Source: an uncultured Clostridia bacterium
GTDB lineage: Bacteria > Bacillota > Clostridia > Tissierellales > Peptoniphilaceae
Assembly: GCA_947254025.1 (NCBI GenBank)
Contig: CAMYBS010000004.1
Coordinates: forward strand, 30,215 to 94,214
Length of the DNA: 64,000 nt
Direction: 5' to 3'
Shown here: piece after piece, positions 12,020 to 30,007 of the stretch
How the letters are laid out: every line of letters begins with the position of its first letter
Numbering within the stretch: position 1 is the stretch's first letter
Translations under genes and position numbers: made by a program
Notes under the pieces: generated by a model
Database searches by the model: none
What the model was told of the DNA's origin: nothing
The model's input: only the letters and a program-made list of their open reading frames with translations

Positions 12020-12028
12020 GAGGCAGCT

Positions 12029-12583
12029 ATGAGAGTTATATCAGGCAAATTAAAATCAAGAAAGTTACTTGCACCAAAGGGGCTTAAAACGAGGCCAACT
12101 TTGGATAATATAAAAGAAACGATATTTAATATCATATCGCCAATTGCGATAAATGCATCTGTCTTGGATCTCTTTAGTGGGACAGGGCAGATTGGTATAG
12201 AATTTTACAGTAGAGGCGCGAAGGATGTTTATTTAGTGGATAATTCTTTTGAAGCCGTTACTGTAATAAAAAAGAATTTAGAAAGCTTGGGGCTATCTAA
12301 TGAGATAAAACTTATGAAGATGGACGGCTTAAGGGCACTAAAAGGTCCACTCAAGGAGATAAAATTTGATTATATCTTTCTAGATCCACCATATAAACAG
12401 CACGAGCTTCTAAATGAGGTACTTAAAACTATAGTAGAGATGAATTTACTTAGCGAATGTGGCGAGATTATTATAGAAGAAAACAAGGACTATGAACTAA
12501 ACGAAACCATTAGCAACGATGATTTTGATATCGATATCAGAGCAATGGGTGACAAGAAAATATTTTTTATAAAGAGGAATTAA
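12029..12583 (+). CDS. rsmD: 16S rRNA m2G966 methyltransferase RsmD
   Basis: Methylates G966 of 16S rRNA. Begins MRVISGKLKSRKL, followed by RPTLDNIKETIFN, the SAM-binding VLDLFSGTGQIGIE and the FLDPPY catalytic motif, all typical. The C-terminus is short and beta-rich. It abuts coaD with no gap, the common rsmD-coaD pair in Firmicutes. 184 aa, normal. Confidence 0.95.
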   Translation: MRVISGKLKSRKLLAPKGLKTRPTLDNIKETIFNIISPIAINASVLDLFSGTGQIGIEFYSRGAKDVYLVDNSFEAVTVIKKNLESLGLSNEIKLMKMDGLRALKGPLKEIKFDYIFLDPPYKQHELLNEVLKTIVEMNLLSECGEIIIEENKDYELNETISNDDFDIDIRAMGDKKIFFIKRN

Positions 12584-13063
12584 ATGAAAGCTATTTATCC
12601 AGGTAGTTTTGATCCTATAACTAACGGTCACATAGACATCATCAATAGATCAAAGGACATCTTTGACGAGTTGATTATAGGCATAACTACTAATGTACAG
12701 AAAAAACATTTATTTACTATAGAAGAAAGAAAAAAGATGATAGAGGAGATTTTTAAAGACGAGAAGAAGATTAAGGTAAAGACATTTGATGGCCTCTTAA
12801 CTTCATTTTGTGAAGAAGAGAAGACGAACTTCGTTATCAGAGGTTTAAGAGCCGTTTCAGATTATGAGTATGAACTTCAAATGGCGATGGCGAATAAGTC
12901 GCTTAATAAAGATTTAGAGACTATATTTTTAGTAGCCTCACACAAGTTCAACTTCCTTAGCTCTTCGATTGTGAAAGAGATTGCATACTATCATGGAGAT
13001 GTATCGGCACTAGTGCCAAAAAATGTTGAAAATGGATTGAAAAAGAAATACGAAAGGGGTTAA
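12584..13063 (+). CDS. coaD: phosphopantetheine adenylyltransferase
   Basis: Fourth step of coenzyme A synthesis: 4'-phosphopantetheine plus ATP gives dephospho-CoA. Nucleotidyltransferase motif GSFDPITNGHIDII (T/HxGH type) at the N-terminus, RGLRAVSDYEYELQMA in the middle, and LSSSIVKEIAYYHGD near the end, all as in bacterial CoaD. The gene begins at the base after the rsmD stop. 159 aa is the usual length. Confidence 0.97.
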   Translation: MKAIYPGSFDPITNGHIDIINRSKDIFDELIIGITTNVQKKHLFTIEERKKMIEEIFKDEKKIKVKTFDGLLTSFCEEEKTNFVIRGLRAVSDYEYELQMAMANKSLNKDLETIFLVASHKFNFLSSSIVKEIAYYHGDVSALVPKNVENGLKKKYERG

Positions 13064-13066
13064 AAA

Positions 13067-13561
13067 ATGGATGTATTAGGTCTTATCGATGAGATTGAGG
13101 ACATTGTTGAATCAGCAGGTTCTCTACCTCTAACAAGTAAGGTTTTAGTTCAAAAAGAAGAGTTACTAGACATCATTAGCGAATTAAGAATAAAGCTTCC
13201 AGATGAAATAAAACAAGCTGCATGGATTAAAGAAGAAAGAGAAAGAATTATTAGCGAAGCAAATAAAGATGCAGAACAAATTATCAAAGAGACAAGATTA
13301 AAACTTGAAGAGCTTGTAAGCAAGGAAGAAGTATTAAAAGAAGCTAACGAAAGAGCAAAAGATCTTATGAGCAAAGCTCAAGTAGCATCAACAAACTTAA
13401 AGCGCTCTTCGCTTGAATACTCTGACAAGCTACTAATGAACGCACAAGAGAACTTAAAAGAAATGATTACTACTTTGAACGAAAACAGAACAGAGCTTAG
13501 AAAGATGGCTGCTAGTGTTAGTCAAGAAAGCCAAGTAGCACAAGAAAAAGAAGAAAAGTAA
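13067..13561 (+). CDS. coiled-coil protein, ATP synthase subunit b-like
   Basis: No catalytic motif is visible. Almost the whole 164-residue chain is predicted helical and charged (EQIIKETRLKLEELVSKEE, then EANERAKDLMSKAQ), with alanine/glutamate heptads like those in ATP synthase b or DivIVA-type proteins. There is no membrane segment. Proteins of this kind are found downstream of coaD in related clostridia, often labelled only 'ATPase'. Three bases separate it from coaD, so it is probably the last gene of the fakA-recG-rsmD-coaD operon. Role unknown. Confidence 0.75.
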   Translation: MDVLGLIDEIEDIVESAGSLPLTSKVLVQKEELLDIISELRIKLPDEIKQAAWIKEERERIISEANKDAEQIIKETRLKLEELVSKEEVLKEANERAKDLMSKAQVASTNLKRSSLEYSDKLLMNAQENLKEMITTLNENRTELRKMAASVSQESQVAQEKEEK

Positions 13562-13564
13562 AAA

Positions 13565-13606
13565 AATAAATGCGAAAGTACATATACCTTCGCATTTATT
13601 TTTTTG
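13565..13606. terminator. bidirectional terminator between the coiled-coil gene and lpdA
   Basis: A 12-bp perfect stem AATAAATGCGAA / TTCGCATTTATT with a 12-nt loop. T-rich tails are present on both strands, matching the convergent genes. Confidence 0.88.
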
Positions 13607-13619
13607 TTTGTTTATAAAA

Positions 13620-15014
13620 TTATTTTGCCATAGGTGAGTTAGTCGACTTACCTTCAAGAGCCTCTATTGTGTCTTTAAATACTTCGGCAATAGTTGGATG
13701 AGCATATATCATGTTTGATAAGTCTTCAACACTTAGGCCATTAGCCATAGCTATAACAGCGTAGTGGATCAATAAGTCAGCGTCTTTACCAATGATGTGG
13801 CAGCCTAAGATCTTCTTGTGATCCTTTGTAGATAGTATCTTTATAAAGCCCTTTGTTCCACCAACTGCAAGTGCCTTACCATTTGCTTGGTACATAGACT
13901 TTGCCTTGTCATACTCAACGCCTTCTTTTTCAAGCTCTTGTTCAGTCTTACCTACTTGAGCAAGTTCTGGAACTGTATATAAAACAGCTGGGACGATGGA
14001 TAGATCAGTCTTTGGTTCAAGGCCAGACAATTGTTCAACAACGTGGAAGCCTTGAGCTGTAGCAAAGTGAGCTAATTGAGTGTTCTTGTATATAACGTCG
14101 CCGATAGCGTAGATGTTGTCATTTGATGTCTTTAAGTTTTCATCAACTAAAACGCCGCCGTCCTTTGTTTCAACTTTAGCAGCTTCAGTGTTAAGACCGT
14201 CAGTGTTGCTTGCTCTTCCTAGCGCAACTAATACATATTCAGCTTCATACTCTTTTAAAGTATCCTTGCCTACCATTTGAGTAGTTACTTTAAGCATATC
14301 GCCAGATTGTTCTATCTTCTTAGAGTGTTGCTTAGTTGCAAACTTTAGATTTGGATTCTTAAGTATAGATTGAAGTCTCTTTTGTATTTCCATATCTGCT
14401 GTTTTAAACATATTGTTACCGATAACAGTTACATCAGTACCGAAGCTTGCATATATAGTTGCAAACTCAAGACCTATAACACCTGTACCAATAACTATCA
14501 TTGACTTAGGTATTTCTTTTAAGCTTAGTAGAGTAGTTGAGTTTAAAACCTTTGGTAGGTCGCAGCCTTCAAGCGGCTTTATGTCCTTTGATCCAGTTGC
14601 TATGATGCACTTATCAAAAGTAACGTTTTCTTCGCCGCCATCGTTTAAAGCGACTTTAACTTCATTTTCACTTACGAATGAAGCAGTACCCTTTATTAGC
14701 TTGATGTTGTCATAAGTAGAGATTAAGTACTCAATACCATCTCTAAGCTTAGTCATAACATCTTGCTTTCTTTGATAAATCTTTTCAGTGTCAAGTCCAT
14801 AGCCGTCAATCTTTACGCCAAATTCTTCCGAATTTTGTACTTCGCTATAAAAATCAGCTATCTTTACCATAGTCTTAGTAGGTATACAGCCAATGTTTAG
14901 GCAAGTACCACCAAGCAAGTTCTTTTCAACAAGAACTACATCATTTCCTAGTTGGGCAGCTCTGAAAGCGGCTTCGTATCCACCAGGACCTGCACCGATA
15001 ATTAGTAATTTCAT
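13620..15014 (-). CDS. lpdA: dihydrolipoyl dehydrogenase
   Basis: FAD-dependent E3 enzyme that reoxidises dihydrolipoamide using NAD. FAD-binding GAGPGGYEAA is at the N-terminus, the redox disulfide is in GGTCLNIGCIPTK, the NAD-binding loop is GTGVIGLEFA, and AIGDV precedes the dimer domain with the catalytic His-Pro-Thr pair in YAHPTIAEVF. There is no lipoyl domain at its N-terminus. It stands alone, with no pyruvate dehydrogenase or glycine-cleavage genes beside it, so the partner complex cannot be read from context. GGAGGAC is the ribosome binding site. Confidence 0.95.
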   Translation of the reverse strand: MKLLIIGAGPGGYEAAFRAAQLGNDVVLVEKNLLGGTCLNIGCIPTKTMVKIADFYSEVQNSEEFGVKIDGYGLDTEKIYQRKQDVMTKLRDGIEYLISTYDNIKLIKGTASFVSENEVKVALNDGGEENVTFDKCIIATGSKDIKPLEGCDLPKVLNSTTLLSLKEIPKSMIVIGTGVIGLEFATIYASFGTDVTVIGNNMFKTADMEIQKRLQSILKNPNLKFATKQHSKKIEQSGDMLKVTTQMVGKDTLKEYEAEYVLVALGRASNTDGLNTEAAKVETKDGGVLVDENLKTSNDNIYAIGDVIYKNTQLAHFATAQGFHVVEQLSGLEPKTDLSIVPAVLYTVPELAQVGKTEQELEKEGVEYDKAKSMYQANGKALAVGGTKGFIKILSTKDHKKILGCHIIGKDADLLIHYAVIAMANGLSVEDLSNMIYAHPTIAEVFKDTIEALEGKSTNSPMAK

Positions 15015-15049
15015 GTATATGTCCTCCTTTATTTTTTTCTTATATAATA

Positions 15050-15058
15050 ATTATATCA
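15050..15058 (-). promoter_or_regulatory. probable extended -10 promoter of lpdA
   Basis: The minus strand reads TGATATAAT about 35 bp upstream of the lpdA start. The -35 position is weak (TTAAAA), so this is tentative. Confidence 0.45.
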
Positions 15059-15085
15059 TATATTGTCTTATTTTTAAGAAATATT

Positions 15086-16237
15086 TCATACACTTAGTAA
15101 ATTAATCTTATAAGCATCTTTTACGTTCATGCCCTTCATCAGATAATAAATTTGATCATTATTTACCATCATCTCAAGGTCTAACTTGCTCTCATGACTT
15201 AAATTATCAAGATCTTTGTACTTGCTAATGATATTTAGCTCGCTATGTTTTTTTATCTCTTTTAAAATTTTTTTTCCTTTTTCATTTGCACATAAAGGAA
15301 TTATAAAATCATATTCTTTGTCTCTTGAAACACTATCTTTATAAATGTTTAATAGCATTGATAATAAAAATCTATTGATTCTGCTCTTTGAAAAGTTTTT
15401 TATTGAGACCATATCCATAAATTCATTATAGCTCTTCGCCTCATAGATGTATTTTTTAATATAGTTTACAGCGTCTTCATCATATTCAAAACACCATGTT
15501 AAATTCTTTTCTCTTATGAAAATGGATTTAATATAAGAAAAATATTTTTCTAAATCAAGTATTTTTTCTTGGGGAAGTACTGGGACTAAACCCATTACAT
15601 CTTCACCTTTATATATAAGAGAGCGTATGTGACTAGCACTTGCTATACCATCGTCATCGCACTTATCATTATAGCCGGGGCCATGTCTTTGCACGGCGAA
15701 TGGCTTTACCTTGCTCTTTGTTTCGTCAAGTGCACTTATATACTTATAAGCAAGTATATTATTTGATTTACTCATTATGTCACTTGATGTTAGCTCATTA
15801 AAGCTTAAAGCGTAAGCCCTTGAGTAAGAGAGGCCACTATTCAAATGCTTTTTAATTAGCTCATCAAATTCATTCTTCTTAGCCTTCATTATTTCATCTG
15901 CTTTTCTAAGAGTCTCTATACCATCTTCACTTCCAAAGCTTAGGTAATCTATTACGTTTAGTTTATTTAGTATAGTAACAGCGTTTTTAGCAAATATGTC
16001 AGCAGGAGCAATCGAAGAGAACAGTGGCAGCTCTAGTACAAGATCGCAGCCGCACTCGCAGGCAATTTTGGCTCTTTCATACTTAGAGTAGGCACTAGGA
16101 AGACCTCTTTGCACAAAATTACCACTCATAAGAGCAACCACGGCATCAAGACCTAGCTCCTCTTTACTTTTACGTACATGGTAGAGGTGACCATTATGAA
16201 ATGGATTGTATTCACAAATAATTGCAGCTATTTTCAA
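15086..16237 (-). CDS. tmcAL: tRNA(Met) cytidine acetate ligase TmcAL
   Basis: Makes N4-acetylcytidine at the wobble base of elongator tRNA-Met from acetate and ATP. N-terminal nucleotidyltransferase motif IICEYNPFHNGHLYHV, then MSGNFVQRG, LELPLFSS and the GPGYND segment, which is characteristic of the family (COG1323). I chose the TTG at 16237, giving LKIAAIICEYN, because AGAAGGGA lies six bases before it; a GTG nine codons upstream has no ribosome binding site. It precedes the divergent ackA, fitting because acetate is its substrate. 383 aa, normal. Confidence 0.9.
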   Translation of the reverse strand: MKIAAIICEYNPFHNGHLYHVRKSKEELGLDAVVALMSGNFVQRGLPSAYSKYERAKIACECGCDLVLELPLFSSIAPADIFAKNAVTILNKLNVIDYLSFGSEDGIETLRKADEIMKAKKNEFDELIKKHLNSGLSYSRAYALSFNELTSSDIMSKSNNILAYKYISALDETKSKVKPFAVQRHGPGYNDKCDDDGIASASHIRSLIYKGEDVMGLVPVLPQEKILDLEKYFSYIKSIFIREKNLTWCFEYDEDAVNYIKKYIYEAKSYNEFMDMVSIKNFSKSRINRFLLSMLLNIYKDSVSRDKEYDFIIPLCANEKGKKILKEIKKHSELNIISKYKDLDNLSHESKLDLEMMVNNDQIYYLMKGMNVKDAYKINLLSV

Positions 16238-16264
16238 CTTTTTCCCTTCTTTCTTAAAAAACAC

Positions 16265-16293
16265 TTGAAATTTTCTATGTTTTATTATATCAT
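16265..16293 (+). promoter_or_regulatory. sigma-A promoter of ackA
   Basis: TTGAAA, 17 bp, TATCAT, ending 37 bp upstream of the ackA start. Confidence 0.75.
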
Positions 16294-16329
16294 ATATATG
16301 TATTTTGTTAAATATTTAGGGAGGTAAAA

Positions 16330-17529
16330 ATGAAAATATTAGTAATTAATTGCGGATCATCATCATTAAAGTACCAATTAATGAACATGGATGATGAAAG
16401 CGTAATCTGTAAAGGTTTAGTAGAAAGAATCGGTATCAATGGCTCAAAGCTTACTCACAAAGTAGAAGGAAAAGAAAACTTTGTTGTTGAAGAAGACATG
16501 AAGAACCACAAGGACGCTATGAAGCATGTATTTGATGCACTAGTTAATAAAGAACACGGCGTTGTTGCTTCACTTGATGAGATTGACGGTATCGGTCACA
16601 GAGTACTACATGGTGGAGACATAATAACTGATTCAACACTAGTTACTGAAGATGTTAAGAAGACTATCGAAAAGTTCATCTGCTTTGGACCACTTCACAA
16701 CCCAGCAAACCTTATGGGTATAGAAGCTTGCGAAGAGCTTGTAAAGGGCAAACCAAACGTTGTTGTTATGGATACAGCCTTCCATCAAACAATGCCAGCT
16801 AAGAACTACATGTACGCTATCGACTACGACCTATACGAAAAGTACAGACTTAGAAAATACGGTTTCCACGGAACTTCTCATAAATATATAGCACATAGAA
16901 TGGCTGAAATACTTAATAAAGATTTATCAGAACTAAACATTATCAACTGCCACTTAGGCAATGGCTCAAGCTTAGCTTGCATTAAGAATGGTAAAGTGTA
17001 CGATACATCAATGGGTGTTACACCGCTAGAAGGACTTGTAATGGGTACAAGATCAGGCGACATTGACCCAACAGTAGTAACATTCCTTTGCGAAAACGAA
17101 CACATCACACCATACGAAGCTAACCAATGGTTAAACAAGAAGTCAGGTGTGCTTGGAGTTTCTAAATTAAGCTCAGACTTCAGAGACCTTGAAGAAGCAA
17201 GAGACAAAGGTAACGAAAAGGCAGGTCTTGCACTTGATATGTTCACAAACAGAGTTAAGAAATACATCGGTGCTTACATGGCTCAAATGCCAGAGCTTGA
17301 CGCTATCGTTATGACAGGTGGTATCGGAGAAAACTCTGACACAATGAGAAGAGAAATTCTTCACGGACTTGAACACCTAGGCATAGAACTAGATGACAAT
17401 AAGAACGATGGAACAAGAGGAAAAGAAGTTAACATCGCTAAAGACGGAGCTAAGATTAAGATCTACATTTGCCCAACAAATGAAGAGTTAATGATAGCAA
17501 GAGACACAAAAGAAATTATTTCAAAATAA
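16330..17529 (+). CDS. ackA: acetate kinase
   Basis: Converts acetyl phosphate and ADP to acetate and ATP, the energy-yielding end of fermentative acetate production. The N-terminal VINCGSSSLKYQL, HRVLHGG, DTAFHQTMP, YGFHGTSHKYI, HLGNGSS, GTRSGDIDP and the C-terminal TGGIGENS and NEELMIARDT motifs are all present. GGGAGG lies seven bases before the ATG. No pta is adjacent. Codon use is neat (many preferred codons), as expected for a highly expressed gene. 399 aa, normal. Confidence 0.98.
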   Translation: MKILVINCGSSSLKYQLMNMDDESVICKGLVERIGINGSKLTHKVEGKENFVVEEDMKNHKDAMKHVFDALVNKEHGVVASLDEIDGIGHRVLHGGDIITDSTLVTEDVKKTIEKFICFGPLHNPANLMGIEACEELVKGKPNVVVMDTAFHQTMPAKNYMYAIDYDLYEKYRLRKYGFHGTSHKYIAHRMAEILNKDLSELNIINCHLGNGSSLACIKNGKVYDTSMGVTPLEGLVMGTRSGDIDPTVVTFLCENEHITPYEANQWLNKKSGVLGVSKLSSDFRDLEEARDKGNEKAGLALDMFTNRVKKYIGAYMAQMPELDAIVMTGGIGENSDTMRREILHGLEHLGIELDDNKNDGTRGKEVNIAKDGAKIKIYICPTNEELMIARDTKEIISK

Positions 17530-17553
17530 TTTAAAATAAAAAAAGAAAAAGTC

Positions 17554-17582
17554 TTGACAAAAGACACAAAAAACAGTATAAT
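17554..17582 (+). promoter_or_regulatory. consensus sigma-A promoter of rpmF
   Basis: Perfect TTGACA and TATAAT hexamers separated by 17 bp, 64 bp upstream of the rpmF start. Confidence 0.93.
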
Positions 17583-17646
17583 TGTAATGTTATAAATGTG
17601 AATTAGTATAGAAATACATTTACTGTAAGTTAAGGAGGTGTTTTTA

Positions 17647-17826
17647 ATGGCAGTACCTAAAGGACGTACATCAAAACAAAGACGTAACAAAAGAAGAGCT
17701 TCATCTTATACATTAAGAAAAGCAACATTCGTTGAATGTCCTCAATGTCATGAAATGAAAAGACCACACAGAGTATGCATGAGCTGTGGTTACTACAATG
17801 GTGAAAAGGTTTTAGATGTTGAATAA
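17647..17826 (+). CDS. rpmF: 50S ribosomal protein bL32
   Basis: 59-residue ribosomal protein starting MAVPKGRTSKQRRNKRRA, with the zinc-binding CPQCHEMKRPHRVCMSCGYYNG segment (two CxxC pairs). Start chosen six bases after AAGGAGGTG; the three codons upstream in frame are not part of the family. In many relatives ackA, a YceD/DUF177 gene, rpmF and plsX lie in a row; here no YceD gene is between ackA and rpmF, and plsX is displaced 5.7 kb by an accessory insert. Confidence 0.96.
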   Translation: MAVPKGRTSKQRRNKRRASSYTLRKATFVECPQCHEMKRPHRVCMSCGYYNGEKVLDVE

Positions 17827-17831
17827 AAAAT

Positions 17832-17858
17832 ACTCAGGTTAAATCCTGAGTTTTTTTA
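17832..17858 (+). terminator. intrinsic terminator of rpmF
   Basis: Stem ACTCAGG / CCTGAGT with a six-base loop and a seven-T tail, five bases past the rpmF stop. Confidence 0.9.
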
Positions 17859-18031
17859 TTGTTAGTGTTTCCACTATGTTAACATGATTTGTAAGGGTTT
17901 GTAGTAGGACACATAAAAAAGACTAAAGAATTTAAAGAAACATTTAGAATAATAAGAAAAAATGGAAAAATATTACCATAGATATTATATGATAATATAC
18001 TAGAAAAGGTAATCAAAAATATGAAAAAGTA
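17859..18031 (+). other. degenerate intergenic DNA at the left edge of the accessory islet
   Basis: No intact gene. One frame gives a 24-codon stretch (GHIKKTKEFKETFR...) that ends at a stop, followed in another frame by YDNILEKVIKNMKKY and a stop. These look like pieces of a decayed gene, but I cannot assign them. Sequence is more AT-rich than the flanking core genes. Confidence 0.3.
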
Positions 18032-18060
18032 TTGAATTTTGAACAAAATTATGCTAAACT
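18032..18060 (+). promoter_or_regulatory. probable promoter of the secreted protein gene
   Basis: TTGAAT, 17 bp, TAAACT, about 140 bp upstream of the next gene. A small inverted repeat (TAAACCT-TT-AGGTTTA, 18113-18128) lies in the resulting leader. Confidence 0.5.
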
Positions 18061-18200
18061 ATAGTTAAACAAATAAAGATGAAGTAATAAATAATAGAAT
18101 CGAGAAATACCGTAAACCTTTAGGTTTATCGCAACATAGATTTAAAAAAAGCAGTGATATCAAAGACAAGTATAAACAAAATTATATGAGGAGGTAAGAA

Positions 18201-18803
18201 ATGAAGAATATAAAAAAACTTTCAATAGCACTTGTGCTTTTTGCATTAGTTTTTAGTCTGAATGTAGTAATGGCTGCGAAAAAAAGTAACAATGAAAAAT
18301 GTTTTTCAAGTAAGACTTTTTTAGTAGAATCTAGAGATACGAAAGGATCTACGCATTTTAAAATCCGCTTGTTAAAAGGAAGTGTAGCTATTTTTGGTAG
18401 AGAGAAATGGGAAAAAGGTGATACCGTAGTTATTAAGCTAAAGTCTTTAAAAGGAAAAGATTTAGAAGTAGGTATTTTACCTGCCGAAGATATTAAAGCT
18501 GGTTGGGGCTATAATGATTATGGTGCTCCTATAAAAAAGAGAGTAGAAAACCCAGAAGATGATGTAAAATTTACTATTCCGAATGATGGAGAATATGGAA
18601 TTTACGTTAAAGATATGAAATCAAATGCTTTTTCTTTTCTAGAATTATTTAGGGGAAAAGAAATAGTATCTACAAAGTCGGAAGGGAAAAAATCAGAAAA
18701 AGATCATGGTCATGAATTAAATAAACATAATTGTATTGAATTTGAGTTAGAAGTAAATAAAAAATTTATAAATCCTTTAACTAAAACAGAAGAATTGAAA
18801 TAA
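18201..18803 (+). CDS. secreted protein of unknown function
   Basis: I do not recognise this 200-residue protein. The first 26 residues are a clear Sec signal peptide: MKNIKK basic start, hydrophobic LSIALVLFALVFSLNVV, and an AXA-type site (VMA-AKK). The mature part is highly charged with alternating beta-type segments (FKIRLLKGSVAIFG; GEYGIYVKDMKS) and an acidic/basic, histidine-containing tail (KKSEKDHGHELNKHNC). There are only two cysteines in the mature form. An AGGAGGT site lies six bases before the ATG. It is the first gene after rpmF in the accessory insert, with its own promoter. Confidence 0.7.
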   Translation: MKNIKKLSIALVLFALVFSLNVVMAAKKSNNEKCFSSKTFLVESRDTKGSTHFKIRLLKGSVAIFGREKWEKGDTVVIKLKSLKGKDLEVGILPAEDIKAGWGYNDYGAPIKKRVENPEDDVKFTIPNDGEYGIYVKDMKSNAFSFLELFRGKEIVSTKSEGKKSEKDHGHELNKHNCIEFELEVNKKFINPLTKTEELK

Positions 18804-18960
18804 AATTATTATCATAGCTCTTGTGGTAGCATACCTGACTCCGATGTTTATTATAAAAGCCATTAAAAGTGATGGAGATAGATCTTAGCATTATACAATT
18901 TTGTCTGGAATATGTCTATCTTTATTCCTTCTATATCTAACAGCTTTAATAAACAGTTGA
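18799..18960 (+). pseudogene. remnant of a small membrane protein
   Basis: One frame reads KIIIIALVVAYLTPMF, then IIKAIKSDGDRS, an in-frame TAG, and a second hydrophobic helix (ILSGICLSLFLLYLTALINS) to a TGA. The two hydrophobic helices around a charged loop look like a two-pass membrane protein. There is no start codon or ribosome binding site at its left end, and it overlaps the preceding stop. I infer a broken fragment; the family is unknown. Confidence 0.35.
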
Positions 18961-19007
18961 TTAAATTTATTATAAAAAATGATGTAAAAATATCTTCAGA
19001 ATATTTT

Positions 19008-19043
19008 AAAACGATTAAGATTAAAACTTAGTCGTTTTTTCTT
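19008..19043 (+). terminator. intrinsic terminator in the accessory islet
   Basis: Arms AAAACGATTAAG and CTTAGTCGTTTT pair over 12 positions with one G-T pair and are followed by a T run. It probably closes the transcript that begins before 18201. Confidence 0.75.
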
Positions 19044-19156
19044 TGTCAAAAATAAGAAAGAAAATAAAATGCAAAAAAAATGTTTCTACTAGGTCCAAGT
19101 GATTTGGAGCAGTTCCAAGTGGGACAAGGAAAAAAACAAGGACTATCTCAATAAAT

Positions 19157-19176
19157 ACTAACGCAAGCACAAGTAT
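19157..19176 (+). repeat. left copy of a 20-bp direct repeat
   Basis: ACTAACGCAAGCACAAGTAT occurs here and again at 22781-22800, same orientation, 3.6 kb apart. Both copies are followed by A/T-rich sequence and then a consensus promoter. See the finding on possible element ends. Confidence 0.85.
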
Positions 19177-19177
19177 A

Positions 19178-19218
19178 AAATAGGCTAAATTGATTTATCA
19201 GCCTATTTATGATATAAT
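19178..19218 (+). promoter_or_regulatory. promoter of the Sec/CopZ-like gene with an overlapping dyad
   Basis: TTGATT (19190-19195), 17 bp, TATAAT (19213-19218). A perfect 9-bp inverted repeat AAATAGGCT / AGCCTATTT (19178-19186 and 19200-19208) brackets the -35 box and could be an operator. Confidence 0.75.
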
Positions 19219-19226
19219 ATAGATTA

Positions 19227-19335
19227 ATGAATAAAGAAGACTTAAAAAGAGCTGCAACCTGTAGATCCATTGAAAGAGGTATTAGATATCCTGATTAACT
19301 ATAGAAATAATATTTATTTAGACAGGAGGAAATAA
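19227..19335 (+). pseudogene. short leader ORF, apparently frameshifted
   Basis: An ATG nine bases after the -10 box gives a 23-codon ORF (MNKEDLKRAATCRSIERG...). Removing one A from an A5 run near 19243 instead gives a 35-codon peptide continuing PVDPLKEVLDILINYRNN to a stop at 19335, one base before the next gene. Either a small ORF damaged by a one-base insertion, or a short unrelated leader. The first frame vaguely recalls small DUF6870-type proteins of conjugative elements. No firm assignment. Confidence 0.3.
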
Positions 19336-19336
19336 A

Positions 19337-19837
19337 GTGAGTCAAGAAAATAAGATAAATCAATCTTGCTGAGGTTCAATACAAAAAACCACTGGTACAG
19401 TGGAAGAAAAAGCAAATTGCCCCAAATGTCACAAAATAGGAGAAAAGGTTAAGAATATAACTGTAAAGCATATGGTATCAGAAAACCTTATGGGAAAGGT
19501 TGTAGATGAAGAAACTTACTATTTATGTATGAATGAAGATTGTGATGTCGTGTATTATAACTTAAACAATGAAAGAGTTTTTTATAAGGAAGATGTAAAA
19601 GTTCCTATATGGTTTAAAAAGGATGCAAATCCCAAATATATATGCTATTGCAACCAAGTTACAGAGCAACAAATTATAAACGCTGTTTTAGATGATGGTG
19701 CAAAGAATATTAAAGATATTATTAGACTTACAGGGGCAATGAAAAATGCAAAGTGCGAAATTAACAATCCTTTGGGTAAATGCTGTAGTCCTTTTATTCA
19801 AGAAACCATCAATAAAGCATTAAATAGCAAAAAATAG
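19337..19837 (+). CDS. CopZ-like [2Fe-2S]/BFD-domain protein, candidate selenoprotein (TGA read as Sec at codon 12)
   Basis: The reading frame opens at GTG 19337, seven bases after a perfect AGGAGG, and reads MSQENKINQSC, TGA (19370-19372), GSIQKTTG and on without interruption to 19837 (166 residues). A Cys-Sec pair followed by Gly is a classic redox arrangement. Downstream are C28-PK-C31, C64/C69 (YLCMNEDC), then the BFD-type C103-Y-C105 and C140/C149/C150 set (KCEINNPLGKCC). This is the pattern of CopZ of Archaeoglobus, which binds Zn, a [2Fe-2S] cluster and copper. The GTG at 19400 has no ribosome binding site and lies inside the predicted SECIS stem. Alternative: a nonsense mutation. No selABCD genes are in this window. 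Confidence 0.78.
19370..19403 (+). promoter_or_regulatory. candidate bacterial SECIS element
   Basis: The TGA is followed 16 nt later by CCACT-GGTAC-AGTGG (19389-19403), a stem of five to six GC-rich pairs in otherwise AT-rich sequence. The apical loop begins GGU, 21 nt after the TGA. Bacterial SECIS hairpins lie directly downstream of the Sec codon, at about this distance, with a G at the start of a small loop. Confidence 0.7.
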
Positions 19838-19978
19838 TTTGCGACAAATAATTTATAAAGTACGTCATAACAGTAATAAAATTAAAAATAATAAAAAACT
19901 ATAGAATTAAAATTTCAGAGGTTCAGATGTAAAAGTCTGGGCCGCTTTTTTATTTTCCCCGGAAAGGAGGTCACCTAT

Positions 19979-20356
19979 ATGGTAAATGATGAAGTTAATA
20001 ATAAGGCTATAAATATTGAGATAAAAGTGGCTCAGTATTCAGCAAAGGCTATTTTAAAAGCTATGAAAAAGATTATAGAAGATGCCTATGAAAAAAGTCA
20101 ACAACTTGCAGATTATATTAGTGAAAAAAGAAAAACTAATTCAAGGAAACTTAAGGATATGGTAAAGAAAGGTCATCTGGAAAATATTGATAAGCAAATC
20201 GAAAATAAATTCTATGCTTTTAAGGATTATGCAGATAGACGTAAAATAAATTGGGGGTTTGTTAGAGATAAAGATACAAGACTTTATATTAACAATACAA
20301 ACTACACAAAAGAAATGAATAATGAAAACTGTAAAAGGCTGGAAGATTTATTTTAA
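19979..20356 (+). CDS. PcfB-like (DUF3801) conjugation protein
   Basis: The N-terminus VNDEVNNKAINIEIKVAQYS, then AKAILKAMKKIIED, matches the start of PcfB-family proteins of Gram-positive conjugative elements, and LKDMVKKGHLENID corresponds to their central LK.LVKQGQ segment. PcfB-like proteins work beside the relaxase and coupling protein. The C-terminal 40 residues are divergent and end EMNNENCKRLEDLF. GGAAAGGAGG lies nine bases before the ATG. Neighbouring relaxase and coupling genes are missing, so this is probably a stranded piece of a conjugative element. A second copy of its 3' end is at 20791-20838. Confidence 0.72.
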   Translation: MVNDEVNNKAINIEIKVAQYSAKAILKAMKKIIEDAYEKSQQLADYISEKRKTNSRKLKDMVKKGHLENIDKQIENKFYAFKDYADRRKINWGFVRDKDTRLYINNTNYTKEMNNENCKRLEDLF

Positions 20357-20358
20357 TG
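20311..20358 (+). repeat. 48-bp repeat, copy 1 (3' end of the PcfB-like gene)
   Basis: This segment encodes KEMNNENCKRLEDLF and its stop. A copy with four mismatches lies at 20791-20838 and encodes EEMNNENWKRLEDLF plus stop. The copies share the same frame and stop. Confidence 0.85.
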
Positions 20359-20448
20359 CGTTGTTGGATGACAAGAAATTTAATAATGAAACTTTTAAAG
20401 AGATAGCATAAATGTTAACTCTTTTTTATTACAAGAAAGGAGTTATAT

Positions 20449-20708
20449 ATGAATAAATTAGAACAAATAAGACAAGAGTCAAAAGAAATAAAAGATAAAA
20501 TAGATGATACAGAAAAAAGATTAAGGCAACAAAAAAATCAAGAACAAAAGATATTAAAACAAGACATAGTGAAAAGAAGAAAAGATAGAACTCATAGGCT
20601 AATAACAAGAGGAGCAATCTAGAAAGCCTTATAGAAAACGCAGAAAAACTAACAGATGAAGAAATAAAAATCCTACTAGAAGAGGCAAAAAAGACAATTT
20701 TTTTTTAA
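20449..20708 (+). pseudogene. DUF3847-family protein, frameshifted
   Basis: Starts at an ATG seven bases after AAAGGAG and reads MNKLEQIRQESKEIK, a charged coiled coil, then RTHRLITRGAI and a TAG. In the next frame ESLIENAEKLTDEEIK continues to 20708. Together these give the DUF3847 pattern (RTHRLITRGAILESL...LTDEEI) common on integrative and conjugative elements; one T appears to be lost near 20621. The final codons run into a T9 stretch and do not resemble the family. It is probably non-functional. Confidence 0.7.
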
Positions 20709-20847: not shown

Positions 20848-21749
20848 ATGATAGAAAACAATGTTCCAAAAGTATTTATATTATATTCATGGGAAAGTAA
20901 AGAACACTCAGGTTGAGTAAATCTTTAGCAGATAAATTATTATCAGATGGTATTGGAGCTATAATAGATAGCTATGATGTAAGTCCAGGGGATAGACTAC
21001 CAAAATTTATGGAAAGCTCAATAAGAGATAGTGATTATGTAATTATAATATGCACTGAAGAGTATAAAAGGAAAGCTAATAATAGAGAAAAAGGTGTAGG
21101 TTATGAAAGTCATATAATATCTGCGGAACTCTACAATAATCACAATGATAGGAAGTTTATTCCAATCATTAGACAAGGAGATTTCAATACAGCTTTACCT
21201 ACTTACCTAGACGGAAAACTTGCAATAGATTTAAGAGTTAATCCATTTAATGAAGATTCATATAAGAATCTTATTGCATCGATATTTAAAGTTAAAAAGA
21301 AACCTAAAGTAGGTATAAGACCATATTATTTAGAAGAATATGAACCAGTATCAATTGAGGGAGAGGATATAAAAATCATAGGCATAATAATAAATGAAGT
21401 TACCTTGCCAAAAAATGATGGAACAAGAGGTTCTGCTTCATATAGTATCCCTTTTAGATTATCTAACAAACCAACTAGCACATGGTCTAATTGTTTTTAG
21501 AAAATTGGGATTGCCCACCAAGATTTACATCAATTCATAGACCTGGAATAGCTAGAGTTGAATCTGATAAAATTATTTTAGACGGAACAACAATCGAAGA
21601 GGTAAAACAATATCATAGAGATACCTTGATTTTGTGTGTAGAAAAAACAAATTAGAAGAAGAGAAGAACAATTAAAAAGAAAGAAGCAAGAAGAAATAGA
21701 AAATCATTATAGAAACATAAATGATATTTCAAAAGACATAAGATTTTAA
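20848..21749 (+). pseudogene. SEFIR/TIR-domain protein, broken by several frameshifts
   Basis: Begins ATG at 20848 after GAGGTG and reads MIENNVPKVFILYSWESKEHS, then hits a TGA at 20914. The next frame continues KSLADKLLSDGIGAIIDSY, with GDRLPKFMESSIRDSDYVI and VGYESHIISAELYN, the pattern of SEFIR/TIR_2 domains. A second shift in a T run near 21497 leads to LENWDCPPRFTSIHRPGI, and a third near 21645 to a charged coiled-coil tail ending at 21749. TIR-like proteins of this size often act in anti-phage or immune-like defence. With three disruptions the gene is most likely dead. Confidence 0.8.
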
Positions 21750-22352: not shown

Positions 22353-22715
22353 CTTAAAAAGAACCAATTAGCAGAATTAGATAGAAGCTATGAACAGTTA
22401 TATGAAGATAGGTTAGAGGGAAATATAACCGAAAGAAACTTCAATCTAATGAATGTGAGCATATCTAAAAAACAAGACAAGTTAATCGAGGAAATCAAGG
22501 TCTTAGAGGGCGATATAGAAGTATCTTTTGAAACTGAAGATAACTACAAGAAATTCATGAATAATATTAGCAAGTACGCTAAGATAAAATCGCTAAACAG
22601 ATATATTTTAAATCAAATAATAGATAAGATATATGTCTATGACAAGGAAGAAATAGACGGTCAAATAAGCCAAAAGGTTGAAATTCACTACAAGTTTATA
22701 GGTAAATTAAATTGA
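22353..22715 (+). pseudogene. C-terminal fragment of a large serine recombinase (TnpX/TndX-like)
   Basis: An open frame begins right after a stop at 22350 and reads KNQLAELDRSYEQLYEDR, LEGNITERNFNLM, a helical region, and the final INQIIDKIYVYDKEE and KVEIHYKFIGKLN. This is the coiled coil plus DUF4368-type end of large serine recombinases carried by Tn4451/Tn5397-like elements. The N-terminal catalytic serine domain and the zinc ribbon are absent, so it cannot recombine DNA. An internal ATG at 22449 is not a real start. It shows that a mobilisable or conjugative element once ended here. Confidence 0.8.
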
Positions 22716-23386: not shown

Positions 23387-23426
23387 TACCCTCCTTACTG
23401 GACAAACCAGTAAGGAGGGTATTTTT
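23387..23426 (+). terminator. very strong intrinsic terminator at the right end of the islet
   Basis: A perfect 15-bp stem TACCCTCCTTACTGG / CCAGTAAGGAGGGTA with a five-base loop and T5 tail. It insulates plsX from the islet. Confidence 0.93.
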
Positions 23427-23438
23427 ATGTGATATAAT

Positions 23439-23493
23439 TATAAAAAACTTGATTTAATAGGCAAAATAATGTATAATAATTATGGATTTAGAA
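23439..23493 (+). promoter_or_regulatory. promoter of the plsX operon (one of two copies)
   Basis: TTGATT (23449-23454), 17 bp, TATAAT (23472-23477), 28 bp before the plsX start. The whole block is repeated at 20739-20791. No FapR-type palindrome is visible. Confidence 0.88.
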
Positions 23494-23504
23494 CGGAGGA
23501 AATT

Positions 23505-24479
23505 ATGAAGTTATTAATTGATACACAAGGCGGGGACAATGCACCTAAGGCTATGCTCATGGCTGTGCAAAAGGCAAAGGCAGAGGACAGCTCTTTAGAT
23601 TTTGTTTTGTTCGGCGATAGAAAAGAAATTGAAGAGCATCTTGGAGCTGATGCAGCGAATTATGAGATAGTTCAAACTGAAGACGTCATAACAAATGAGG
23701 ATGAGGCTGCTCTATCCATAAGAAAGAAAAATAAAGCATCCATAGTCCTAGCATCAAAGTACTTAGTAGAGCATGATGATGCAGATGCCTTTATATCTGC
23801 TGGTTCAACAGGTGCACTTCTAGCAGCAGCTATGCTTATAGTTAAGAGGATAGATGGCTATAAAAGAGCTAGCATACCAACATTCTTACCAGGACTAAAG
23901 GGACCAACACTACTTTTGGACTCAGGTGCAAATGTTGACTGTGAACCAGAATTTATTTATGAGTTTGCAAAACTTGGCTCAAAGTACGTTGAAAAGCTTC
24001 TTGGCATCGAAAATCCAAAGGTTGCTTTAGTATCTAACGGAGCTGAAGCTAAGAAGGGTAATGAGCTTACTAAGAAGGCTCATGAGATTCTTAAAAACTC
24101 TGAGCTTAATTTCATTGGCAACATCGAAGCGAATGAGATACTTACAACTGAAGCGGACATCATTGTTCAAGATGGCTTTGTTGGCAACGTAATCTTAAAA
24201 GAGCTTGAAGGTATGAGTAAAGTCTTTGTAGGCAATGTTAAGAATTTTATTATGCAAGATAAAAAATATTTCTCATCTGATGAGATGAAGATGTCATTTA
24301 TGAAAGACTTAATGTCTCTTATGGGACTTACTAAGTATGGCGGATCACCAGTATTAGGAGTGAACAAAGCTATAGTTAAGGCGCACGGCAACAGTGACGA
24401 AAAGGCATTTTATTTAGCTATAAGGAACACTGTTGACCTTGTTAATTCTAAAGTTATAGAATATTTAAAAGAAAACTAG
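23505..24479 (+). CDS. plsX: phosphate acyltransferase PlsX
   Basis: Converts acyl-ACP to acyl-phosphate, the first committed step of phospholipid synthesis. Signature segments are DTQGGDNAP near the N-terminus, SAGSTGALLAAA in the middle, LLDSGANVDC, and the C-terminal GGSPVLGVNKAIVKAHG. I start it at the ATG 23505 eight bases after CGGAGG; twelve in-frame codons upstream overlap the promoter. AcpP and rnc follow, as in most Firmicutes; rpmF, the normal left neighbour, is 5.7 kb away because of the islet. Confidence 0.96.
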   Translation: MKLLIDTQGGDNAPKAMLMAVQKAKAEDSSLDFVLFGDRKEIEEHLGADAANYEIVQTEDVITNEDEAALSIRKKNKASIVLASKYLVEHDDADAFISAGSTGALLAAAMLIVKRIDGYKRASIPTFLPGLKGPTLLLDSGANVDCEPEFIYEFAKLGSKYVEKLLGIENPKVALVSNGAEAKKGNELTKKAHEILKNSELNFIGNIEANEILTTEADIIVQDGFVGNVILKELEGMSKVFVGNVKNFIMQDKKYFSSDEMKMSFMKDLMSLMGLTKYGGSPVLGVNKAIVKAHGNSDEKAFYLAIRNTVDLVNSKVIEYLKEN

Positions 24480-24490
24480 GAGGGACTATC

Positions 24491-24718
24491 TTGGAAGAAA
24501 AAATTAAAGAGATAATTGCTAAACAATTTAAGGTAGATGCTAAAGATTTAAAGGACGAAACTACTTTTAAGGAAGATTTAAAGGCAGACTCTATCGCCAT
24601 AGTTGAACTAATTATGAATTTAGAAGATGAATTAAATGTAAGCTTGGATGATGATAGAGTTACAAGCGTTAAAACAGTTGGAGAAGCAATAGCACTAGCT
24701 AAAGAAGCGTTAAAATAA
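24491..24718 (+). CDS. acpP: acyl carrier protein
   Basis: 75-residue acidic carrier of acyl chains. The phosphopantetheine attachment serine is in LKADSIAIVELIM. The helix II continuation VELIMNLEDELNV is typical. It starts with TTG, six bases after an AGGAGGG that overlaps the end of plsX, so translation is likely coupled. Its stop shares a base with the rnc start. Confidence 0.96.
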   Translation: MEEKIKEIIAKQFKVDAKDLKDETTFKEDLKADSIAIVELIMNLEDELNVSLDDDRVTSVKTVGEAIALAKEALK

Positions 24719-25431
24719 TGAAGATTTATGATATATCCGATGCTCGCGAAAAGCTCAAAAGCTTGCAGGCGATTATCGGATATAATTTTAATGACGAAAA
24801 TTTACTATACACAAGTTTAGTTCACAAGAGTTCACAGGAAGCTAAGACCTTAACTGCGCCATACAACGCACAGAGCCTAGAGTTTTTAGGTGACAAAGTA
24901 TTATCTTATGTCTTGGCAAAATATTTATTTGCTAAGTATATTAACAAGGACGAAGGTACTTTATCTAAGCTTATAGCTATGCTTGCTAAGGCTTCATACC
25001 AAAATATTGTTGCTAAAGAGCTTCACTTAGAAGACTACATTTATATGGAGGCAAATTTGAGGTTCAATATTGATAAAACGTCGATACTTGCTGATCATTT
25101 AGAAGCACTAATAGCAGCTATTTACTTAGATTCAGGCATTGATGAAGCTGAAAAATTTATTTTAGATAAATATTTAAAGAATGCACACATGGTTTTGGAT
25201 GCGAACAATGATTTTAGGAATTATAAGAATATCTTGATTGAATATGCACAAAAACATGGTTTAGACTTAGTATATACTTTATTAAAAGAATATGGTCCGG
25301 ACAATGATAAGATTTTTGAGTACGCTGTAGAGCTTGATGGGTATAGAGCCATTGCTAGAGCTAAGAATAAAAAGACCGCTCAGCAAATGGCATCCAAAGA
25401 GCTTGCACTTGAGATGAAATTGATAAAATGA
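24718..25431 (+). CDS. rnc: ribonuclease III
   Basis: Double-strand RNA endonuclease for rRNA and mRNA processing. The catalytic helix reads LEFLGDKVLSYVLA with Glu and Asp in place, and the second metal cluster is DHLEALIAAIYLDSG. The residue before LEFLGD is Ser where relatives usually have Arg (NERLEFLGD), a small local change. The C-terminal 70 residues are the double-stranded RNA-binding domain ending AQQMASKELALEM. It overlaps acpP by one base and the next gene by four. Confidence 0.95.
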   Translation: MKIYDISDAREKLKSLQAIIGYNFNDENLLYTSLVHKSSQEAKTLTAPYNAQSLEFLGDKVLSYVLAKYLFAKYINKDEGTLSKLIAMLAKASYQNIVAKELHLEDYIYMEANLRFNIDKTSILADHLEALIAAIYLDSGIDEAEKFILDKYLKNAHMVLDANNDFRNYKNILIEYAQKHGLDLVYTLLKEYGPDNDKIFEYAVELDGYRAIARAKNKKTAQQMASKELALEMKLIK

Positions 25432-26507
25432 AAAAAAACTATATAATACCAATTTTTATACCGCATCTAGGCTGCCCAAATGATTGTATCTTCTGCAATC
25501 AAAAGAAGATCGCTAAGGACTACGATGCGCAAAAAGAAGAAAATATAAAAAATGATATAGAAAAGTATTTGGCGCTATATGAAGGAAAGCAGGATATAGA
25601 GCTTGCTTTTTATGGAGGCAGCTTTACTGCACTTGATTATCCACTTATGCTTAGCTACTTAAAGCTTGCGAATACATACATCGAGAAAGGCCTCATAGAT
25701 AGCATTAGGATATCGACAAGGCCGGACGCTATAAATGAAGAAATTCTTGACGAGCTTGAAAAGTATAGAGTGAAAACCATCGAACTTGGTGCACAGTCAA
25801 TGAATGATGAAGTTTTAGATGCACTAAAGAGAGGTCATAAGGCGGCTGACACCATTCGCAGCGCTAAAATGATTAAGGACAAAGGATTTACCCTTGGCCT
25901 TCAAATGATGACGGGCCTATATAAGTCTACAGAAGAGATGGATATTGCTACAGCAGAAGCGATAGCAGCTCTGGAGCCTGATTTTGTTAGGATATATCCG
26001 ACGCTTGTCATTAAAGATACTGAACTACTTGACAGACTTGAAGATGGTTCGTATACATCATTAGATGTAGATGAAGCAGTTCATACACTTAAAAGAATTG
26101 TCACTATATTTGAAGCAAAGAACATTGAGATAATCAGGATAGGTCTGCAAACGACTGATAACATACAGCTAGGTAAGGACGTAGTTGCAGGGCCATTTCA
26201 CCCAGCGATACGCTCATTAACTTATGAGGCTATCTACCTTGACATCATAGAAGAATTTATTGAAATAAATAAAATTACTAATGATTTCACAATAATTTCT
26301 TCTAAAAAAGTAGCTTCCTTCTTAAGCGGCTCGAATAAAACGAATAGAAAGAAAATATATAATAAATATAAAATTAATTATGAGATAAAAGGGATCTTTG
26401 ATGATGACGATAGGCTAATGTTTTACGATGGAAGCCCGCAAAGTTACTCATTTAAGGATCTTATAAAGAATAAATACGAAAGGGGCAAGTATTTTGCGTT
26501 TAAATAA
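25428..26507 (+). CDS. radical SAM protein (Elp3/HemN-like), rnc-smc neighbour
   Basis: The [4Fe-4S]/SAM motif is C16-PND-C20-IF-C23, followed by [13 protein letters not shown] (glycine-rich SAM loop), [18 protein letters not shown] and [13 protein letters not shown]. This is the COG1243/Elp3-like radical SAM family that clostridia often encode between rnc and smc. Its substrate is not established; an RNA-modification role is likely by similarity to Elp3 but there is no acetyltransferase domain here. It starts with an ATGA overlap on rnc. The TTG of smc lies inside its last codons. Confidence 0.88.
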
Positions 26508-29500
26508 ATTAATATTGAAGGGTTTTAAATCCTTTGCAAATAAAACTGAAATAGTCTTTACCCCTGGAGTTACAACTGTTGTTGGACCTAATGGTAGCGG
26601 CAAGAGTAACATATCTGATGCTGTTAGATGGGTTCTAGGAGAGCAAAGCAATAAATCACTTAGAGCAAACAAGTCAAGTGATGTTATCTTCCAAGGGACT
26701 GAAGAGAAAAAGGCGCTTGGCTACGCTCAAGTAAGCATAATATTTTCAAATGATGATAATTCTTTACCTGTTGAGTACCAAGAGGTAGAGGTAACAAGAC
26801 GTATGTACCGCTCAGGTGAGAGCGAATTTTTGATTAACAACAAAAAAGCTAGGATGAAGGACGTTAGAGAACTTTTCCTAGATACAGGTGTTGGTAAGGA
26901 CGGCTACTCCATCATTGGTCAAGGTAGGATTGATGAGATACTATCTAATAAACCGGAAGACAGAAGAGCCATATTTGAAGAGGCATCTGGTGTTAGTAAG
27001 TATAGATACAAAAAGGAAGAGTCATTAAGAAAACTTGATAAGACTGAGGCAAATCTATTAAGAATAAAAGATATACTTTATGAGATAGAGCAAAATGAAG
27101 CAAGACTTAAGAGTGAATCTGAAAAGGCTCGAGAGTACAAGGGCCTTATGGAAGAGTACAAAAAGGTAGATGTATCTATTTCATACAGTGCTTATGAAAA
27201 GATTGAGAAGAACCTACTTAAATTTACTGCCGACAAAGACAGACTAGTTGATGAATTAAAGCTAAGCGAGATTAAAAATAAAGAGGTTGAAGAGAGCTCT
27301 GCGCCATTACAAAGTGAGCTTAAGAGGTACGAAGCGCTTATTGATGAGATTAAAGAGCAAAGAAATAAAGACCTTAGAGACTTTGATATCAATAGACAAA
27401 AGCTTGAGATCAATAAAGAAAAGTTAAACTCTATCGAAGACAAGATACTTGACAATAAACTAAAAGAGAAAGAACACGCCAATAAATTATTAGAATCAGA
27501 AGAGAAGATAAAAACTTTATCTCAAGTTAAAAAATCTAGCGAAGAGAATCTTTTAAATATAGCGAAAGATTTAGAAGCGCTTAAGAGCGAAAAAGCATCC
27601 TATGATAAGACAAGTTATGATGAAGCTATGAACAAGGGGCTTGAACTTGATAGAGAGCTAGAGGCTACTAAGATAGGGATTGCAAATTATGAGAGCAATA
27701 AGACTACAGATAGGGAAAAAGCTAAAGAACTTGAGAAGAAAATTCTAGAAAAGGAAAATGACTTAAAGAAGCAAAATGATGAGTTTAAGAAAGCTAGTGA
27801 AGGCTTGGATGACTTAAACAATTCTTTTGTAGAGAAGGACAAATTGCATGAAAAAGCAAAGAACGATATCGCTTCAATATCAGATGACTTAGCTAAGTCT
27901 AAAGACGCATACTTTGCTTTGGAAAATGACCTTAAAGTATTGCAAAAGAGTTATGAGATGCATAAGAACCTAGAAGAGAACCTTGATGGTTATTATAGAA
28001 GTGTTAGAGAGATTTCTAAGGCTGCAAGGAAAAACTTCTTCAAGTCTGACTCAAGTTTATTAGTTGATATATTTAACTGCGAAGAAAAGTATTCGCTTGC
28101 TATAGAGTCAGCGCTTCAATCAAACTTACAAGCTATAGTCATAGATAAAGATGACGATGCTAAAGAATACATCGACTTTTTGAAGAAGAATAACTATGGT
28201 AGAGCAACTTTCTATCCACTTAATAGATATAAAAGCTATGCGAGTGAAAACTTTGGCTTCAATGATAAAGATGCTATAGACTTTGCGAGTGAACTAATTA
28301 CCTTTGATAAGAAGTATGAGAATTTATTTAAGAGTCTGCTTCAAAGAACGGTAGTAACAAAGACTTTTGATGCAGCACTCAGAATATCGAAGACTTATAA
28401 GCAATATAGATATGTAAGTTTGGATGGACAAATCATAAATCCATCTGGATCAATAGTGGGTGGTAGTCAAGTTAAGTCATCATTTATTTCGCGTAAACAT
28501 ATGTTAAGTAAGCTTATGGAAGAGATCAATGATAAGAAAGCCGCTTTAGATGAAGCAAAGACTTCAGTGATTAAAAAAGAAGAAGAGATTAAGAATGAAA
28601 AGTCTATTTACGATAAGCTTAATGAAGAGATATTAAGTATCAATGAAAAGATTGATATGCATAAGAAAGAAATAAATTCATTAGAGATCAATATCAATTT
28701 TGCACAAAGAGATATCAGTCAAGCAAAGAAAGAGCTAGAGGATATCAAGCTTTCATTGAATGCATTTGATGAGAAAATCGTTCAAGCTAATAAGGATTTA
28801 GAAGTTCTTAAGGAGAAAAAAGCTGAGCACGAGAAGAAGATTGAATTAGAAAAAGAACTTATAAAAGGCTTTGAGGAAGAAAAGGATAGACGTAATGAAA
28901 AGCTTCTTCAAATAAGTGTTGAAAAGTCTACCTTAGAAGCAAAGCTAGAAAGAACAGTTGAAGACATTGCTCTTTCAGAAGAATATATAGCTAAGTCACA
29001 AGATATAAAGGCAGCACTTGCTAGTGACTTCAAAGAGCTTAGTCAAAATAAAGAAGCACTTGAAAGTGAAAACACTAGCATCATGGATTTCTTAAAGAAG
29101 AACGAAGAACTTGAACAAGTATACATTGACAAGATAAATGAAAAAACAGATGAAAAAGAAAAAGTTTTATCAAAGATATTTGAACTTCAAAATGAAATAA
29201 AAGCTTGTCAAGAAAATATTATATCTATCAAAGACGAGATAAATAAAAATGAGGTCTTACTTGCTCGTAACGAAGTAATGAAGGATAACATTAAAGAAAA
29301 GTTATCAAATGACTACTTTATTAACATCGAGACCATTGACAAAGAAAGCCTTGTTAAAGCAAGCACTAAGGATCTAAGAGAGCTACAAGAGAAGATAGAT
29401 GTACTTGGCGAAGTCTCTCTATCTTCAATAAAAGAGTATGAAGATACACTAACAAGACTTGAGTTCTTAAGAAAGCAGTTTGATGATATGCAAGAGTCAA

Positions 29501-29997: not shown

Positions 29998-30007
29998 GAG
30001 GTGAAAT

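Follow-up and report, generated by a model that had tools for sequence, protein, structure and literature searches.

Copper chaperones of the CopZ type carry an HMA copper-binding domain in their full-length form. Two NCBIfam families are named after the CopZ N-terminus: NF045877 (CopZ_Nterm_CU, "Csac_0668 family 2Fe-2S cluster-binding (seleno)protein") and NF047645 (CopZ_Nterm_CC, putative iron-sulfur cluster-binding metallochaperone). In two reviews, the former group is filed among predicted selenoproteins (PMC9312934; PMC13188914, with the motif CU) under the name (2Fe-2S)-binding protein, copper chaperone CopZ family, form 2; the words CopZ, 2Fe-2S and copper chaperone are absent from the main text of the 2008 paper that is cited in review for the family. 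Form 1 of these CopZ-like selenoproteins (motif GxUC) has the same core, but its selenocysteine (Sec) lies in the cluster motif near the C-terminus and not in an N-terminal pair. A functional likeness, without homology, can be drawn between such a pair and the NmerA domain of mercuric reductase, in that a thiol pair sits on an arm that would pass metal to the MerA core (Ledwidge 2005, by its title as cited in PMC8261052).

The gene reported here lies in a stretch of 64,000 nucleotides (the window) from a host that is likely a Fenollaria, and it is a member of the already catalogued family NF045877. The sequence-only reading had presented it as an unannotated selenoprotein candidate; its family, however, is already described by NF045877 and by the CU entries in the two reviews. 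In our view the gene, located in mobile DNA, very likely works as a selenoprotein gene, and it belongs to a known family and not to a new kind. What is added here to the known family is the covariation of a hairpin, co-occurrence with selA, the codon states at the Sec site, near-identity of copies across hosts, and links to genes for MerA and ATPases. Judging from these comparisons, we assign a probability of roughly 0.6 to the reading that the window encodes an NF045877 member in which UGA is very likely decoded as Sec by means of the hairpin, and in which the Cys-Sec tail is predicted to capture a soft metal such as Hg(II).

Family membership and predicted structure

Translation through the TGA gives a protein that matches NF045877 with 266.5 bits (cut-off 190) over positions 2-161 of the 161 in the profile. 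It shares its two domains with NF047645, but scores 93.7 bits there, below the cut-off of 100. Only zf_CopZ and Fer2_BFD were found above cut-off by the Pfam search, which returned no HMA domain within the 166 residues; the protein thus differs from CopZ in having no C-terminal HMA domain. The best match in the PDB is the N-terminal domain of Archaeoglobus fulgidus CopZ, 2hu9 (sequence E 1.1e-21; structure E 4.4e-11, TM 0.66 by query and 0.82 by target), which has the same fold and domain order. However, the match begins at residue 27, and the Cys-Sec tail is without a counterpart in the 2hu9 chain. The predicted structure has a mean pLDDT of 86.9; two segments of the tail, residues 1-10 and 13-22, fall below 50.

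All 27 members of an alignment picked for diversity have Cys before the site and either Cys or Sec at it (27/27), as had been expected of homologues, and nine further core cysteines are likewise invariant. A [2Fe-2S] cluster and zinc are predicted from the conserved motif cysteines. The full-length match, the N-terminal CU pair and the zinc- and cluster-motif cysteines are common to the window protein and NF045877; nothing sets it apart as a protein, and what is particular to it is its host and its near-identity with copies in distant hosts.

Form 1 was also encountered among the sequences collected. Eight distant relatives (L180, L181, L183, L190, L203, L206, L212, L218) carry a TGA-coded GxUC at the cluster-motif cysteine pair, reading GTUC, GSUC, GRUC or GAUC. 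Genome G040 has five short partial matches (L011, L015, L017, L018, L019) with one TGA each, of which L018 reads GTUC; several small form-1-like genes may thus be present there.

Reading frame and start codon

The frame opens with GTG at 19337 and runs for 11 codons to a Cys codon (TGC, 19367-19369), followed directly by the TGA; 154 sense codons then lead to a TAG at 19835-19837 (Table 1). Direct reading confirmed this layout, including the AGGAGG before the GTG, just as the sequence-only reading had described it. The UGA-bearing relatives for which upstream sequences were compared also have a GG-rich sequence resembling a Shine-Dalgarno element 5' of their start codon.

Table 1. Features of the locus, in window coordinates.
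Feature	Position	Strand	Basis
Block common to several other genera and a genome of another class (G731), ~97% DNA identity	19226..20371	+	DNA comparison
Shine-Dalgarno sequence AGGAGG	19324..19329	+	Read directly; 7 bases 5' of GTG
CopZ-N-terminal-like (seleno)protein gene, 166 residues if TGA is an amino acid	19337..19837	+	Matches to NF045877, zf_CopZ, Fer2_BFD, PDB 2hu9
Predicted selenocysteine codon TGA, residue 12	19370..19372	+	Only in-frame TGA; TGA in 13/17 distinct close copies
Hairpin CCACTG-GTA-CAGTGG, predicted bacterial SECIS upper stem-loop	19389..19403	+	Fold and covariation
125-residue ORF, likely a truncated DUF3801-like gene of conjugative DNA	19979..20356	+	Match of a relative

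The sole other start listed in this frame is a GTG at 19400, which falls within the 3' arm of the hairpin. Only the piece beginning there is reported by the standard ORF listing. At the corresponding position the 22 UGA-bearing relatives have GTG (10), GTA (10) or ATG (2). Since GTA is not a start codon, an internal start at this place cannot be general, and the earlier statement that 19400 is the only alternative start agrees with the listing even though homologues cannot generally use it.

A covarying hairpin downstream of the UGA

The hairpin begins 16 bases after the TGA in the window, and the stem lies 14-16 bases after the UGA in 22 relatives. A hairpin at a distance typical of SECIS elements had been proposed with a GGU loop: the stem is indeed present and covaries, but energy folding gives a 6-bp stem with a GUA triloop, and GGU would require the top pair to be open. 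In order to assess the stem, we compared the 22 UGA-bearing relatives with equal spacing, in which 80.7% of 176 cells are paired, versus 25.6-55.7% when the arms are slid by 1-3 columns; two-sided changes occur in seven of eight pairs, and none of 500 shuffles reached the covariation score. Because relatedness among the sequences favours the hairpin against shuffles, the slid controls carry more weight. The set of 22 omits eight of the 30 distinct UGA sequences, which differ in spacing or N-terminus. When all 30, including these eight, are used, 75.0% of cells are paired versus 26.7-50.8% in the slid controls, and all eight pairs change on both sides; the consensus structure was drawn from the sequences on which it was scored, which favours its pairing score. 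With pairs counted in a single register, the 30 distinct UGA sequences keep 5.8 of 8, versus 3.6 of 8 in 54 others (4.4 in the best of three registers), a group that includes two close copies (L147, L164) in which the hairpin is kept but counted as out of register. The energy z-score is weak as proof of a hairpin, with a mean of -1.30 for 36 UGA sequences versus -0.31 for 62 others.

The relatives that keep the hairpin with paired changes span 46-99% identity. Among close copies, the stem is kept in all 13 with TGA (with five pairs instead of six in L152), and in L149 and L151 a C-G pair has become U-A through changes on both sides, despite the alteration of two residues. One stem pair is lost in both copies that have Cys at the site, and the Gly and Leu copies described below retain the stem. 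These patterns of change indicate that the hairpin downstream of the UGA is under selection.

Codon states and the selenocysteine machinery of the hosts

Seventeen distinct close copies (91-99% protein identity) have TGA at the Sec site in 13 cases, TGT (Cys) in two, GGA (Gly) in one and TTA (Leu) in one; the Gly and Leu copies are the exceptions to the Cys-or-Sec rule among close copies. Named hosts include Fenollaria, Ezakiella, Anaerococcus, Finegoldia, Peptoniphilus, Oribacterium, Lagierella and Mediannikoviicoccus. The gene, with its TGA and hairpin, is also present in the nearest genome (G001), where model searches found selA, selB, selD and tRNA-Sec, all above cut-off, as they did in its congeners G002 and G003; selD itself contains an in-frame TGA in all three. 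We considered the G001 copy (L220), which shows apparent stops, as a broken gene and rejected this. Over the gene, it departs from the window at eight gaps of one or two bases, most of which fall in homopolymer runs, and at one substitution, and the TGA and the hairpin stem are identical. The gaps are likely an assembly error, not decay, and would hide the gene from automatic callers.

In 14 control genomes the tRNA-Sec model scored above cut-off in five, selB in two and selA in one; the tRNA-Sec model being weak on its own, selA was chosen for the main co-occurrence test. It was found above cut-off in 35 of 35 UGA-bearing genomes versus 19 of 45 with only non-UGA copies (Fisher p 3.7e-9, ancestry ignored), where two of the 35 (G390, G939) have no Cys before the UGA and some of the 45 non-UGA assignments rest on the absence of TGA in tables, not on reading by eye. 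The test covers 80 of 89 genomes drafted; G630, G575, G141, G922, G751, G954, G724, G129 and G809 were left out irrespective of result, and G630 and G724 were examined separately for selB and tRNA-Sec. The host of the TTA copy (G731) gave no selA match, and neither selB nor tRNA-Sec above cut-off. Both Cys copies, as well as the one with Gly, sit in genomes with selA, so Sec is dispensable there. Together, the covarying hairpin and the co-occurrence with selA support, by comparison, the earlier proposal that the UGA is decoded as selenocysteine.

A Thermoanaerobacterium-type copy, seen in L046 and in L165 (genome G724), has a TGA three codons beyond the Sec site and is possibly a broken gene. 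The profile search found neither selB nor tRNA-Sec above cut-off in G724; a TGA within the NF045877 family therefore need not mean Sec.

Three other accounts of the UGA can be weighed against this evidence. The UGA could be a real stop and the gene a relic in decaying mobile DNA, its hairpin merely inherited; truncated mobile genes around it and the absence of partners beside it would fit, but the 154 open codons after the TGA, the family match over the full length, the paired changes in relatives as distant as 46% and the presence of selA in every UGA genome tested make this very improbable. A start at GTG 19400, with the UGA never read, is what the standard ORF list offers, and the codon there is ATG in two copies; such a start is barely credible given GTA in ten of 22 relatives, the role of this GTG in the hairpin arm, and Cys-bearing relatives that are open through the N-terminus. 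Equally hard to sustain is readthrough with another residue (Trp or a near-cognate) and no selenium: one close copy each has Gly and Leu at the site, but all 27 chosen members have Cys or Sec, and UGA copies co-occur with selA and the hairpin. Under decoding as Sec, SelB with Sec-tRNA would read the UGA where the hairpin is present.

Linked genes and the predicted metal

We examined the genes directly upstream, on the same strand in the case of MerA, in 132 distinct loci. A MerA-like gene is found there in at least five and a P1B ATPase gene in at least ten, both counts being lower bounds because most flanks are about 1.5 kb. The linked relatives are 49-60% identical to the window protein; two MerA-linked copies (L154, L194) have UGA, and the other thirteen linked copies are without UGA at the site. 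Four of the fifteen linked neighbours were scanned against NCBIfam. Against a cut-off of 454.45, the two MerA proteins scored 564.5 and 559.3 bits; the sequence SCCAE ends each of the five linked MerA. The two ATPases matched the cadmium family with 537 bits (cut-off 313.5), and the copper family with 380.6 and 377.4 bits, below its cut-off of 397. No HMA match was found in the three linked MerA scanned for it, each of which begins near the FAD domain. At seven close-copy loci inspected, no metal gene was recognisable beside the close copy. The copy of Pasteurella bettyae (L097, 5048-5515), which lies behind a P1B ATPase, has an in-frame TAA after its CPVC motif and looks broken.

The MerA and cadmium-type ATPase neighbours of relatives favour soft divalent metals of the Hg/Cd type over copper as the probable metal of the protein. 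Copper handling, which had been attributed to the gene, derives from the analogy with CopZ, and the neighbours of some relatives point elsewhere. Reduction of Cu(II) or disulfides has been proposed for A. fulgidus CopZ, and the protein could likewise be a selenoprotein whose Cys-Sec pair and [2Fe-2S] cluster carry out such a reduction, Hg and Cd playing no part. The closest solved structure is that of the CopZ N-terminal domain, and the family is filed under copper chaperone CopZ in both reviews (PMC13188914, PMC9312934), which agree with such a role; the missing HMA domain, the fit of the scanned ATPases to the cadmium family and not the copper family, and the five loci with MerA speak against it, and we regard it as rather unlikely. 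Under the soft-metal reading that we prefer, the predicted zinc and [2Fe-2S] core would stand beside a Cys-Sec tail of low predicted order that may bind or exchange the metal and hand it to a partner, mercuric reductase or P1B ATPase where linked, and the cluster may keep the Cys-Sec pair reduced or pass electrons. The linked MerA, starting near the FAD domain without an HMA domain, suggest that the arm for metal docking could be a separate protein. The window gene stands apart from MerA and ATPase genes; a partner there would therefore be encoded elsewhere or be missing. The links in relatives offer a concrete, testable function for a family whose name comes from nothing but its cluster.

Mobility and genomic surroundings

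Comparison with Fenollaria massiliensis (L020) gave 98.3% DNA identity over 19226-20450, versus 89.7% in one flank (12002-19235) and 85.4% in the other (23426-30000). Oribacterium (L026) is 98.3% identical over 19309-19835, and G731, of the same phylum but another class, is 97.1% identical over 19226-20371. Neighbouring genes vary across the seven inspected loci with close copies. From these identities, the gene appears to have moved recently between distantly related bacteria. The proposed placement in a mobile islet is upheld by near-identity across distant hosts, as opposed to 85-90% in congeneric flanks, and by truncated neighbours of mobile type; the position of the islet between rpmF and plsX is our reading of the ORF list, not a search result.

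The surroundings of the window gene look like decayed mobile DNA, as judged from an ORF with a SEFIR domain and a DUF4368 piece. The former, a bSEFIR/TIR_2 ORF at 20913-21500, matches PADLOC bSEFIR with 192.9 bits over positions 58-203 of 412 in the profile; related ORFs in L025 and L164 have 306 residues, and it therefore looks truncated. The latter, at 22449-22715, scores 64.7 bits; DUF4368 is presumably the C-terminal part of large serine recombinases. The ORF at 19979-20356 has only a match below cut-off to another family, and its longer relative in L028 matches DUF3801 with 60.4 bits. In Oribacterium (L026, 7752-7964), a 70-residue Cro/C1-type HTH gene (HTH_26; VanU-like below cut-off) lies directly 5' of the selenoprotein gene, and the window seemingly retains only its first codons at 19227-19260. 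A 200-residue ORF at 18201-18803, which gave no Pfam or NCBIfam match, is 96.6% identical in DNA to Peptoniphilus duerdenii L031 (10045-10667), where the related 200-residue ORF follows the selenoprotein gene at a distance of about 2 kb; the two genes are possibly shared cargo.

We tentatively suggest, as a conjecture that goes further than the main reading, a travelling selenium-dependent gene. In this picture, the gene for a Cys-Sec protein of metal capture, with a SECIS of its own, would travel on a mobile block between orders and classes. Hosts equipped for Sec would read the UGA, and a host without the machinery could preserve the frame by replacing UGA with UUA. The tail would then act as an in-trans metal-docking arm for partners that have none, such as MerA without NmerA. 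Many hosts are without Sec decoding, so a selenoprotein gene on mobile DNA amounts to a natural experiment on a UGA reaching a new host. With four codon states (TGA, TGT, GGA, TTA) at 91-99% protein identity and a readable selA status, the value of Sec versus Cys becomes testable with nearly identical proteins.

Among the best matches in titles and abstracts, we recognised no paper on such a selenoprotein gene in mobile DNA, and a phage collection gave no match to the gene. Plasmid records yielded two partial matches (67-75% identity), one of which bears the family name in its annotation. Prevotella, Porphyromonas, Peptoniphilus, Veillonella and a Coriobacteriales genome (part of L058-L094) have a second version, of the Cys type, in nearly identical form; it shares about 53% identity with the window protein, and its occurrence in these hosts suggests a separate wide transfer.
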